NCBI RefSeq assembly: GCF_034932065.1 | Contig: NZ_JAYGHP010000008.1 | Location: 1 to 64,000, forward strand | DNA: 64,000 nucleotides | Origin: Crocosphaera sp. UHCC 0190 | GTDB taxonomy: Bacteria; Cyanobacteriota; Cyanobacteriia; Cyanobacteriales; Microcystaceae | Direction: 5' to 3' | Shown here: positions 19,933 to 49,687 of the stretch, one piece after another | How positions within the stretch are numbered: position 1 is the first letter of the stretch | How the letters are laid out: every line of letters starts with the position of its first letter | Notes under the pieces: model-generated | Seen by the model: the letters and a program-made list of their open reading frames with translations, nothing else | Told to the model about the DNA's origin: nothing | Databases searched by the model: none | Position numbers and translations under genes: made by a program

Positions 19933-20178
19933 ATGAAAGCAAAACTCTATGATGGAATTATTACCTTAGTAGATATTAAAACTAATTCTGCTAGAAATGT
20001 TATCCCTAAAGGAACACAAGGAAGCATTGTTGAATGTTATGAAAATCCTGAAGGATATGCAGTTGATTTAGCTATTCCTGATAATAGTTTAATAACAGAT
20101 TATGATTATGAAAATGTGATTCTTTATCCCGAACAATTTAGGGTAATTAATTCGATTAATGAAACGGTTGCGGTTTAA
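19933..20178 (+). CDS. DUF4926 domain protein
   Basis: 81 residues. KLYDGIITLVDIKTNSARNVIPKGTQGSIVECYENPEGYAVDLAIPD...ENVILYPEQFRVI is the DUF4926 core: a small SH3-like beta barrel. The usual partner is a DUF6883 gene, here directly upstream. The 3' end overlaps the opposite-strand hicB-like stop by 4 bases (20175-20178). Confidence 0.75.
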   Translation: MKAKLYDGIITLVDIKTNSARNVIPKGTQGSIVECYENPEGYAVDLAIPDNSLITDYDYENVILYPEQFRVINSINETVAV

Positions 20179-20432
20179 TCGATATTATAGCGACTTTTTT
20201 TCATTTTTCTTGAGGGTAAAGGAATCTCTTTTTTGCCACTATAATAAACGGTTTCTATCCATAATTCTCTTGCTTCCTCAATATTAATGACAACTTCTTC
20301 TAATGTCTCTCCTTGCGTTATACACCCTGGTAAATCGGTAATTAAAGCAGTATATCCCCCCTCATCTTCAGGGTAAATTGAGATAGGATATTTAAGGGAT
20401 AAAAAATAGTCTAAAGACGGACGTTCTAACAT
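20175..20432 (-). CDS. HicB-like antitoxin, no HicA partner
   Basis: 85 residues. The N-terminal half (YPISIYPEDEGGYTALITDLPGCITQGETLEEVVINIEEARELWIETVYYSG) is the HicB partial-RNase-H-like fold. The basic C-terminal tail (PSRKMKKSRYNID) lacks a DNA-binding domain. No HicA toxin gene is adjacent on either side. Part of its sequence is duplicated as a relic at 17548-17577, showing earlier rearrangement between these TA loci. Confidence 0.8.
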   Translation of the reverse strand: MLERPSLDYFLSLKYPISIYPEDEGGYTALITDLPGCITQGETLEEVVINIEEARELWIETVYYSGKKEIPLPSRKMKKSRYNID

Positions 20433-20498: not shown

Positions 20499-21083
20499 TT
20501 ATATCCATAAATTTATAGGATTATTTTTATCTTCTTCCCATTTAATCGGATTATTAATAATATATTCTCTGATTCGCTCTAATGATCCATCATTACGAAT
20601 AATATGATCATAAAATCTAGGTTGCCAGGCAAAATTGTTATATTTATTTTGACCACACCAACGGGTAACAGCAGATTTATAGGATCGAATTATGGTACTT
20701 AATGACCCTGCTTTGGGTGATATTTGTGACATGACTTTAGGTAAATTATATTCATCATTAATCATGGTTTGTGTAGAGACGTTGCCTGCAACGTCTCTAC
20801 ATCTGGATTTAGGATTTTCAATAATGATAATTCCATGAATATGATTAGGCATAATAATAAAAGTATCAATAAATATATTCTGATGGTGTTGAGGAATTTC
20901 TACCCAATATTGCTGTGCAATGTCACCTATTGGCGATCGCTGCATTTTAGTATTAATAATATCGCCAAAATAATTAATTTTTTTATAAGTACAAATTGTG
21001 ACAAAATACCATCCATTTTGAGTATAGTCTCTATTGGGTAATCGAATAGACTTAGTACGATATTGGTTTTGATATAAATTCAT
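20499..21083 (-). CDS. REP-associated tyrosine transposase (RAYT, Y1 HUH family)
   Basis: 194 residues. The N-terminal RLPNRDYTQNGWYFVTICTY and the metal-binding HUH triad MPNHIHGIII (His81, His83) identify a TnpA-REP/Y1 single-strand transposase. The C-terminal motif FYDHIIRNDGSLERIREYIINNP contains the likely catalytic Tyr174. RAYTs nick and move short palindromes; here GTAGAGACGTTGC palindromes lie 80 bases upstream of the start and about 950 bases further. Unusually, a third copy lies inside the coding region (residues about 95-104, CRDVAGNVST) without breaking the frame. Confidence 0.88.
   Translation of the reverse strand: MNLYQNQYRTKSIRLPNRDYTQNGWYFVTICTYKKINYFGDIINTKMQRSPIGDIAQQYWVEIPQHHQNIFIDTFIIMPNHIHGIIIIENPKSRCRDVAGNVSTQTMINDEYNLPKVMSQISPKAGSLSTIIRSYKSAVTRWCGQNKYNNFAWQPRFYDHIIRNDGSLERIREYIINNPIKWEEDKNNPINLWI
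20773..20800. repeat. GTAGAGACGTTGC palindrome, copy 1 (inside RAYT gene)
   Basis: 28 bases: 13-base perfect arms GTAGAGACGTTGC / GCAACGTCTCTAC around CT. It lies within the RAYT coding region. Confidence 0.95.
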
Positions 21084-21163
21084 AGAAATTTTGCCAATAA
21101 AGCTAATTGATATTTAAAATGCCCAAAATAATCAATAAATTTACATTTTTCCCCTAAAACCCT

Positions 21164-21191
21164 GTAGAGACGTTGCAGGCAACGTCTCTAC
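21164..21191. repeat. GTAGAGACGTTGC palindrome, copy 2
   Basis: 28 bases with perfect 13-base arms around AG, preceded by AAAACCCT. It lies between the RAYT start (21083) and the 3' end of the glycine-zipper gene at 21215. Confidence 0.95.
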
Positions 21192-21214
21192 GCGATTAAT
21201 TATGTAAATTTATT

Positions 21215-21466
21215 CTAGTTGTTTTTAGCCCATTGTACTCCTTTATAAATACCATAACCTGCTAATCCAGCAAAAACAACAACACCTGCTACTGGAACAG
21301 CAACAGTCGTTGTTGTTGTAAATCCTATTGCTCCTAAAATACCAGAAGCAGGAGCAGTGATTTCTGCAACTACAATTGCATCAGCAATAACATTTGCAGC
21401 AATAGCACCAATAGCACCAATAGCAGCAATAACTTGAGCGTCATTGGTAAATTGAACGTCATCCAT
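21215..21466 (-). CDS. Hydrophobic glycine-zipper protein
   Basis: 83 residues from the ATG at 21466 (MDDVQFTNDAQ), chosen because a strong AGGAGG site (21474-21479) lies 7 bases upstream; an in-frame start at 21499 does not. Nearly the whole protein is Ala/Gly/Val-rich with two membrane-seeking segments and GxxxG spacing (VPVAGVVVFAGLAGYGIYKG). The stretch GILGAIGFTTTTTVAVPV closely resembles the C-terminus of the LRAT protein at 27781-28305. It follows a similar gene by 19 bases in one operon. Function unknown; pore-like or bacteriocin-like activity is only a possibility. Confidence 0.7.
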   Translation of the reverse strand: MDDVQFTNDAQVIAAIGAIGAIAANVIADAIVVAEITAPASGILGAIGFTTTTTVAVPVAGVVVFAGLAGYGIYKGVQWAKNN

Positions 21467-21485
21467 AATTTTTCCTCCTAAAATA

Positions 21486-21878
21486 CTATTTTTTGTCAAA
21501 AAGTTTTTTTAATCCATAGCCAGCGAGTCCTACGACTGCCCCTACTGCTGCAACGGGAGCCATTCCTACACCAACTGCTGTTCCTGCGACAGCTAATCCC
21601 ATTCCTCCTACAATGGTTGACACTCCTGCGCCTGTTACTGCACCTGCAGCTACTGCACCTAAAGCGGACAAATCTTGATTGTCAATAGCTTTTTTGGCAC
21701 CATAAGCAGCAGCACCAACAACAGCACCCGCAGCAGTAACGGGAGCAGCACCAATGGCTACTCCCCCAAATCCACCAACTAACCCCATACCGCCAATAGT
21801 GGCAGACAAACCAGCACCCGCAGCAGTTCCACCAGCGACTAAGGCTGTCCCTTCTGCTTTGTCTTTAAAGTTCGTCAT
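21486..21878 (-). CDS. Duplicated glycine-zipper membrane protein
   Basis: 130 residues consisting of two tandem copies of a module of about 60 residues. Each has a Gly/Ala-rich hydrophobic run containing IGGMGL or VGGMGL, an APV(T/A)A segment, a Y-G-(A/L)-K-K motif and a charged end (KKAIDNQD, KKLFDKK). The regular GxxxG spacing suggests packed membrane helices. It is first in an operon with the smaller hydrophobic gene. A near-perfect CRP-type site (21942-21957) and a weaker one (21965-21980) lie 64 and 87 bases upstream, as in the LRAT gene. Function unknown. Confidence 0.75.
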   Translation of the reverse strand: MTNFKDKAEGTALVAGGTAAGAGLSATIGGMGLVGGFGGVAIGAAPVTAAGAVVGAAAYGAKKAIDNQDLSALGAVAAGAVTGAGVSTIVGGMGLAVAGTAVGVGMAPVAAVGAVVGLAGYGLKKLFDKK

Positions 21879-21941
21879 ATTTGGTTTAACTTCCTCAGCA
21901 ATAACACCAATCTATTATATTCTTTAAAAAACTATGATATT

Positions 21942-21957
21942 AGTGATATTAATCACA
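21942..21957. promoter_or_regulatory. CRP-type site upstream of the glycine-zipper operon
   Basis: AGTGA-TATTAA-TCACA matches the CRP/SyCRP1 consensus TGTGA-N6-TCACA at 9 of 10 fixed positions; the inner 14 bases (21943-21956) equal the reverse complement of the site at 28383-28396. Confidence 0.6.
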
Positions 21958-21964
21958 ACATTAG

Positions 21965-21980
21965 TGTGATTGAATTCATT
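21965..21980. promoter_or_regulatory. Second, weaker CRP-type site
   Basis: TGTGA-TTGAAT-TCATT keeps the left half-site and three positions of the right half. Its centre lies 23 bases from the stronger site, about two helical turns. Confidence 0.4.
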
Positions 21981-22029
21981 GACAAATGATATTAGATACG
22001 TACTTTTTTATGGTTCTTTACCCAAAAAA

Positions 22030-22057
22030 GTAGAGACGTTGCAGGCAACGTCTCTAC
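22030..22057. repeat. GTAGAGACGTTGC palindrome, copy 3
   Basis: 28 bases, perfect 13-base arms around AG. It lies 24 bases past the chlH stop (chlH is on the minus strand), so it could also end the chlH transcript. Confidence 0.95.
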
Positions 22058-49659: not shown

Positions 49660-49687
49660 GTAGAGACGTTGCCTGCAACGTCTCTAC
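49660..49687. repeat. GTAGAGACGTTGC palindrome, copy 4
   Basis: 28 bases, perfect 13-base arms around CT, followed by AGGGTTTT (the flank of copy 2 reversed). It overlaps the last 4 bases of the small gene at 49684 and starts 1 base after the pyrD stop. Confidence 0.95.

Follow-up and report, generated by a model that had tools for sequence, protein, structure and literature searches.

A RAYT (TnpA_REP) transposase gene of Crocosphaera sp. UHCC 0190 carries in frame, in the loop between its HuH strand and the next helix, a REP palindrome of the type that flanks the gene. The gene was studied in a stretch of 64,000 nucleotides, here called the window, and was compared with relatives from other genomes. 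In our view the best explanation, with a probability of about 0.7, is that the RAYT inserted the palindrome locally into its own gene, where it has persisted because the loop tolerates it. The observation is sound and ordinary in kind for subclass 2.4, since passages of PMC6006769 (BMC Genomics 2018) already describe in-frame REPs inside tnpA_REP genes of this subclass. What is added here, from sequence comparison, is that the in-gene REP usually belongs to the type found beside the same gene and that its two arms change together.

The RAYT gene and its palindromes

The 194-residue protein contained the motifs NHIH (residues 80-83), WQ (153-154) and YIINNP (174-179). It matched Pfam Y1_Tnp with 24.4 bits (cut-off 23) and NCBIfam REP_Tyr_transpos with an E value of 2.6e-19 and 69.6 bits, under the cut-off of 80, which is an annotation rule and no biological definition. 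The profile match to PDB 4er8, the solved E. coli TnpA_REP, had an E value of 1.1e-4, and 4er8 was also the best Foldseek match of the structure model (E 2.6e-6). Because of the motifs, the matches to 4er8 and the REP linkage, the gene was classed as a RAYT despite its NCBIfam score, in agreement with an earlier sequence-only reading of the window. It fits subclass 2.4 (RAYT group 4). The motif set NH[IFV]H, WQ and YIxNNP was complete, the variable insert between the HuH strand and alphaC was present, and REPs were located both within and beside the gene. The protein had no C-terminal extension past the core, with 15 residues following the NNP motif.

Table 1. Positions of the RAYT gene, the REP palindromes of the window and in-frame copies elsewhere.
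Feature	Position or locus	Strand	Remarks
RAYT / TnpA_REP gene	20499..21083	-	194 aa, ATG start, HIH 81-83
In-frame double-foot REP palindrome	20773..20800	.	codons 95-104, read TGT AGA GAC ...
Identical-arm REP	21164..21191	.	upstream of RAYT start codon
Identical-arm REP	22030..22057	.	beyond two Gly/Ala-rich ORFs
Identical-arm REP	49660..49687	.	within degenerate copy of MITE-like repeat
In-frame copies, own genome	L170, L171, L177, L179 (other contigs)		glutamate synthase, leucyl-tRNA synthetase, Fer4_8 iron-sulphur protein, PFOR
In-frame copies, other genomes	L222, L228, L231, L233, L235, L236, L241, L243, L245, L250

The in-gene REP, GTAGAGACGTTGC-CT-GCAACGTCTCTAC, is a perfect palindrome of 28 bases with a GTAG foot at either end, and scores 14 pairs. 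In the reading direction of the gene, TGTAGAGACGTTGCAGGCAACGTCTCTACA encodes residues CRDVAGNVST, so that the ten in-frame residues described earlier were confirmed by the open reading frame. In the structure model residues 93-115 had pLDDT values below 50, between a strand at 81-88 and a helix at 128-145. Residues 95-104 are thus predicted to be unstructured, in a model built on a four-sequence alignment (the best of five had a mean pLDDT of 70.4, the others 56.4 to 35.7).

The three identical-arm copies named in the sequence-only reading were all exact. GTAGAGACGTTGC was found eight times in the window, as four palindromes, in a search that allowed 2 mismatches; the expected count was 0.39, and none of 100 shuffles reached eight. 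The upstream copy begins 81 bases beyond the RAYT ATG, with 80 bases between them, the copy at 22030 lies 23 bases from the stop of a magnesium chelatase gene, and the foot of the copy at 49660 forms the stop of a minus-strand ORF of 161 aa. Across the whole genome (4.43 Mb) 36 palindrome places were found with up to 3 mismatches, and a reversed control gave 0.

The RAYT gene is adjoined by an ORF for a HicB-like antitoxin (20175-20432, minus strand, Pfam PF15919). Between two of the palindromes lie two short hydrophobic ORFs rich in Gly and Ala (94 and 130 aa; 21215-21878, minus strand), neither of which had a Pfam match.

A MITE-like repeat carries most copies of the window type

The genome contained 19 copies of the window type (GTTGC type) with at most 1 mismatch. 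Three were at the RAYT locus, and 14 had all or part of a MITE-like flank on one or both sides. The remaining two (L001, L003) had flanks in common with each other and a similar terminal inverted repeat. The consensus of the MITE-like repeat is about TATACCAAATCCGGTTATCAAAATAGATTAAC-REP-TGGGTTTTGTTGGTTTTAATAACTC...GCGGATTTGGTATA, with the 28-mer in the centre and short terminal inverted repeats near TATACCAAATCCG. MITE-borne copies were those at 49660-49687 and at L002, L004-L009, L013-L015 and L166-L169. When left ends of the repeat were searched by pattern (up to 3 mismatches), 10 of 10 abutted a palindrome. A REP probably entered one MITE-like repeat and then hitch-hiked with it. Another subtype, GTTTCATGAAAC, had varied flanks in the same genome and made up three of the four copies located in host genes.

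The sequence-only reading had proposed to see whether the copies share flanks with the upstream copy; the four copies of the window do not. By eye, the three copies at the RAYT locus had no flank in common with the MITE-like repeat or with each other, and the 49660 copy sits in a separate, larger repeat. Being part of a MITE-like repeat, that copy is no evidence of RAYT mobilisation. Most GTTGC-type copies drop out as evidence for RAYT activity in the genome for the same reason, and with 14 of 19 copies MITE-flanked, genome-wide copy number was rejected as a sign of RAYT mobilisation. The copy number of a REP may therefore reflect hitch-hiking and not the RAYT.

Palindromes in the loops of related genes

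Relatives of the RAYT were found in 108 of 195 genomes of the order. The loci comprised the matches listed in that search, the own genome's three and three named loci (from Fischerella, Westiellopsis and a Bacillota MAG). These 150 loci gave 162 ORFs with a match, of which 128 were full-length single-frame ORFs, the window gene included; L018, ORFs with runs of N and ORFs spanning part of the profile were left out. The relatives were picked by similarity to the insert-bearing protein and are the matches listed, weaker ones lying outside the sample.

The loop makes up 15% of the coding length across RAYT genes, and its length ranged from 4 to 110 residues over the 128 genes. A palindrome score of at least 11 was found in the loop of 39 genes, in the N-terminal part of 0 and in the C-terminal part of 2. 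In codon shuffles (20 per gene, 128 genes) the corresponding means were 0.0 for the loop, 0.3 for the N-terminal and 0.2 for the C-terminal part. For the comparisons below, 43 genes were taken to have an in-gene palindrome (score at least 10) and 79 to have none (score below 9), six genes with a score of 9 belonging to neither group. Partial ORFs had palindromes too (L045, L082, L109, L126, L143), and in L045 and L082 the palindrome adjoined the frame break.

A loop palindrome score of at least 9, present in 49 of the 128 genes, required 17 changes on a FastTree tree built from the core without the loop; shuffled labels required 39.6 on average. Judging from this tree, the loop palindrome is inherited in clades, yet has been gained or lost several times. 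Because 15 of the 17 genes of the window clade scored at least 10, the insertion in this clade is, by its distribution, old and inherited; the inserts of L032 (score 8) and L028 (score 0) look decayed. The earlier claim that the element inserted into its own mobiliser stands as far as a flanking-type palindrome in the predicted loop is concerned, but the insertion is not private to the window gene.

None of the four catalytic residues checked was missing from any gene, either among the 43 with an in-gene palindrome or among the 79 without one, and catalytically intact relatives with loops of only 4 to 10 residues exist. In the core, dN/dS was about 0.07 to 0.21 in eight of nine RAYT pairs (for example, dN 0.056 and dS 0.82 for L030/L031); the ninth pair, L041/L042, was nearly identical and uninformative. 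These ratios indicate that the family is under purifying selection and that the gene is kept working.

Both feet were intact in 34 of the 43 in-gene palindromes. In L035 and L092 the in-gene feet had changed symmetrically (GGAG/CTCC and GTCG/CGAC), while the flanking copies were still GTAG/CTAC; these altered-foot copies might represent an escape from the guide sequence. Loops expanded in frame by tandem repeats were seen in the RAYTs L111, L117, L121, L132 and L139 (for instance GLHSEGLHS and RRNVSTHPT), some of them apparently built from half a palindrome.

In-gene copies match the flanks of their own gene

Another palindrome was located within 560 nt in 34 of the 43 genes with an in-gene palindrome. 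The in-gene copy was 0.91 identical to its own flank, compared with 0.57 after permutation (0/5000 permutations, n=34), and within the window clade the values were 0.94 and 0.78 (0/5000, n=13). A palindrome at most 200 nt from the gene was present in 29 of 43 genes with an in-gene copy and in 11 of 79 without one (p 3e-9), leaving 14 of the 43 with none at that distance. The sister genes L016 and L022 had different cores, each matching its own upstream copy.

The own flank was the best-ranked match in 26 of the 34 genes. In the other eight it was not, the in-gene and upstream copies of L023 (genome G024) differed, and in G064 the in-gene copy was unlike about 50 genomic copies of another variant; homogenisation would accordingly be slow or incomplete. 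A congener, G041, had the same in-gene copy as G064. Matches to the general family pattern numbered 3 in all in G041 and 55 in G064, so that the genomic family may grow or shrink with the in-gene copy constant.

Homologues that lack the insert do exist, namely L021 and L162. The latter is sister to L076 and L087; its gene is flanked on either side by the in-gene REP type of L087, and its loop, of 9 residues, is empty. From this arrangement L162 looks like an empty site, with the insert present in its sisters.

The association between core type and in-gene type was examined in 58 of the 195 genomes. Of these, 38 have a loop palindrome or its relic, in some cases in a partial gene, and the other 20 come from the 87 genomes that gave no match. 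Outside the gene, the exact GTTGC type occurred in 4 of 5 genomes with the same in-gene type, 4 of 33 other RAYT genomes and 0 of 20 genomes without a match. G024 had none outside, its sole copy being in the gene, and the in-gene copy of G138 had 1 mismatch. The GTTCC type occurred outside the gene in 3 of 3 (one gene being partial and one having 1 mismatch), 6 of 35 and 0 of 20 genomes. The exact GAACGGCC type was present outside the gene in 3 of 6 genomes with an exact in-gene copy (the others being G041, G064 and G149), in both of the 2 genomes whose in-gene copy is a near variant, in 6 of 30 other RAYT genomes and in 1 of 20 without a match. We grade this association over genomes as weak, the location of the outside copies having been read for part of the genomes.

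The common element is DNA and not peptide

One and the same 28-mer, TGTAGAGACGTTGCATGCAACGTCTCTACA, was read as CRDVACNVST in L023 and L024 and as VETLHATSL in L027. Because one palindrome is read in two frames, the common element is the DNA and not the peptide. Among the 49 loop palindromes scoring at least 9, phases 0, 1 and 2 were found 29, 20 and 0 times; the absence of phase 2 matches expectation, since that phase puts the TAG of the foot in frame. In the window clade of 17, phase 1 was found in 11 genes, the window gene included, and phase 0 in a nested group.

The 11 phase-1 palindromes (9 distinct) had changes on both sides at 6 of 13 pairs, with 97.4% of cells paired, compared with at most 1 pair changed on both sides and at most 48.9% paired in slid versions. 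Four of five covariation measures beat all 500 shuffles; for the fifth, further pair types, 22 of the 500 attained the observed value. This shuffle control ignores relatedness. The pattern indicates that the in-gene arms change together, by compensatory pairs. Homologues with the same residues and no palindrome at the DNA level were not found among the genes compared: the window gene, and each of 10 relatives that read similar residues in this frame, has retained a palindrome in its DNA with a score of at least 11. Conservation at the peptide level was rejected on the grounds of the two frames and the compensatory pairs.

In-frame palindromes in host genes

Away from RAYT loci 71 copies were read in seven genomes, 32 in the own genome, where 35 of the 36 palindromes were read and one near a contig end was left out, and 39 in six others (in G040, 8 of 25 GTTCC copies were read). 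Across six genomes, 14 of the 71 copies were in frame in Pfam-supported genes (Table 1), which makes in-frame residence in host genes common for these repeats. Four of these 14 were among the 32 copies of the own genome and read VETFHETSL or VETFHGTSL. In the six other genomes 16 of 39 copies were traversed by an ORF of at least 100 aa; 10 of these ORFs were run against Pfam and 10 of 10 were above the cut-off in the palindrome-traversing frame, the domain not always lying across the palindrome. Seven further ORF-borne copies (L176, L239, L240, L249, L251, L252, L258) are outside the Pfam-supported set.

The Pfam-supported hosts were glutamate synthase (in two genomes), leucyl-tRNA synthetase, PFOR, a Fer4_8 iron-sulphur protein, IPP transferase, and HMGL-like, AIR synthase type, CobN type, acyl transferase, CCG cysteine-rich type, DUF2887, WD40 and PAS proteins. 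In leucyl-tRNA synthetase (LeuS) the palindrome takes the place of loop residues, the balance being 1 residue more than in the nearest relative, and in glutamate synthase it adds 5 to 11 residues compared with ten relatives. For glutamate synthase (L199, G196) the nearest relative has VVGPNGQGN in the same loop. These residues resemble the remnant of a different palindrome type (VGANGRSPL), and the glutamate synthase loop may be a repeated landing site. In-frame palindrome residence is not unique to RAYTs, and through copies in glutamate synthase, leucyl-tRNA synthetase and the like, palindromes reshape host proteins. The RAYT loop is much denser in palindromes than host genes are, the two being counted on different repeat sets.

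Discussion

The position of the insert, the matching of types and the empty-site relative are the reasons for which we infer self-insertion. The RAYT would cut and join single-stranded DNA at its own REPs, and its own gene could receive a copy of a REP lying a few hundred bases off. Insertions outside the loop, or in an unreadable frame, would be lost. Conversion, re-insertion or hairpin-templated correction may afterwards maintain the likeness of in-gene and flanking copies. The presence of the in-gene copy can be explained without giving it a function.

It is rather unlikely that palindromes simply spread anyhow into the loops of many proteins, with no cis preference at the RAYT. The 14 of 71 non-RAYT copies in Pfam-supported genes are what such a spread would give, but RAYT genes are a tiny share of a genome, yet 39 of 128 hold a palindrome in a loop of 15% of their coding length, and the in-gene type matches the gene's own flanks. 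A peptide function, with the ten residues selected and the palindrome a by-product, is highly improbable. CRDV..NVST-like residues do recur in the 11 frame-1 genes of the window clade, the window's included, but the other frame of the same DNA gives an unrelated peptide, the arms co-change at 6 of 13 pairs and so alter the residues, and the region is predicted to be unstructured.

Selection might also act on the nucleic acid, with the in-gene REP serving as an mRNA hairpin, as a site of self-cleavage that limits the transposase, or as a portable founder copy; we think this quite improbable. The feedback suggested in the sequence-only reading would act through an mRNA hairpin, and folding of 176 nt around the in-gene REP predicted one (z -4.39, MFE -40.3 kcal/mol). 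The arms are compensatory, both feet are intact in 34 of 43 genes, and perfect palindromes persist where close copies are rare, as in G041 with 3 pattern matches and G024, whose sole GTTGC-type copy is the in-gene one. Against this, 79 of 128 genes are without a loop palindrome (score below 9), none of the 79 having lost any of the four catalytic residues, tandem-repeat and decayed loops exist, and L035 and L092 have both feet changed. Hairpin-templated repair could maintain palindrome symmetry without selection. The symmetry may be owed to selection, to conversion or to such repair. It is unlikely that group-4 RAYT genes have the in-gene REP as a selected working part, either a protected founder copy or a built-in brake. 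As a founder copy it would allow a transferred gene to seed a new REP family; as a brake it would act through self-cleavage or the mRNA hairpin.

Local self-insertion thus remains our preferred reading. Guesses at the REP that a RAYT recognises are usually based on the flanks. Should the in-gene copy be a reliable match to them, the gene would itself contain a second label of its cognate REP, and RAYTs could be paired with their substrates from sequence alone in cyanobacteria. Quentin and colleagues are reportedly the authors of the 2018 study of tnpA_REP genes in BMC Genomics.

Passages of PMC6006769 assign RAYT group 4 to subclass 2.4 and describe double-foot REPs, and they also report an 8-residue insertion at the end of alphaB in this subclass. 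The window gene agrees with these passages in the motifs NH[IFV]H, WQ and YIxNNP, a length of about 194, the occurrence in cyanobacteria, the variable beta3-alphaC insert, and GTAG...CTAC double-foot REPs beside and inside the gene with the frame kept; nothing in them was found to separate it from subclass 2.4. Among the matches listed in a search of mostly non-subscription literature, PMC6006769 was the one description of in-frame REPs in RAYTs of cyanobacteria, which is no proof that others are lacking. Enzymes of other TnpA_REP groups are described in parts of PMC8266576 as cutting single strands beside the REP at CT (or CA), with GTAG the proposed guide for cleavage in those groups.

Di Nocera et al. 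2013 (PMC3733652) described cyanobacterial REPs of the GTAG kind as well as REPs within ORFs of diverse function, and the GTAG-tagged palindromes found here near RAYT genes and inside ORFs are of the same kind as those in the sections concerned. For the in-frame cases in cyanobacterial housekeeping genes we claim no novelty against the intragenic list of that paper, as far as its sections on these repeats go. Rickettsia palindromic elements (RPE), cited in the same sections of PMC3733652, are likewise in-frame palindromes in conserved genes; unlike the window REP, they are of another sequence family and, in the passages concerned, have no linked transposase. Beyond the passages of PMC6006769, the matching of in-gene and flanking copies, the reading of one palindrome in two frames and the compensatory changes were measured here.
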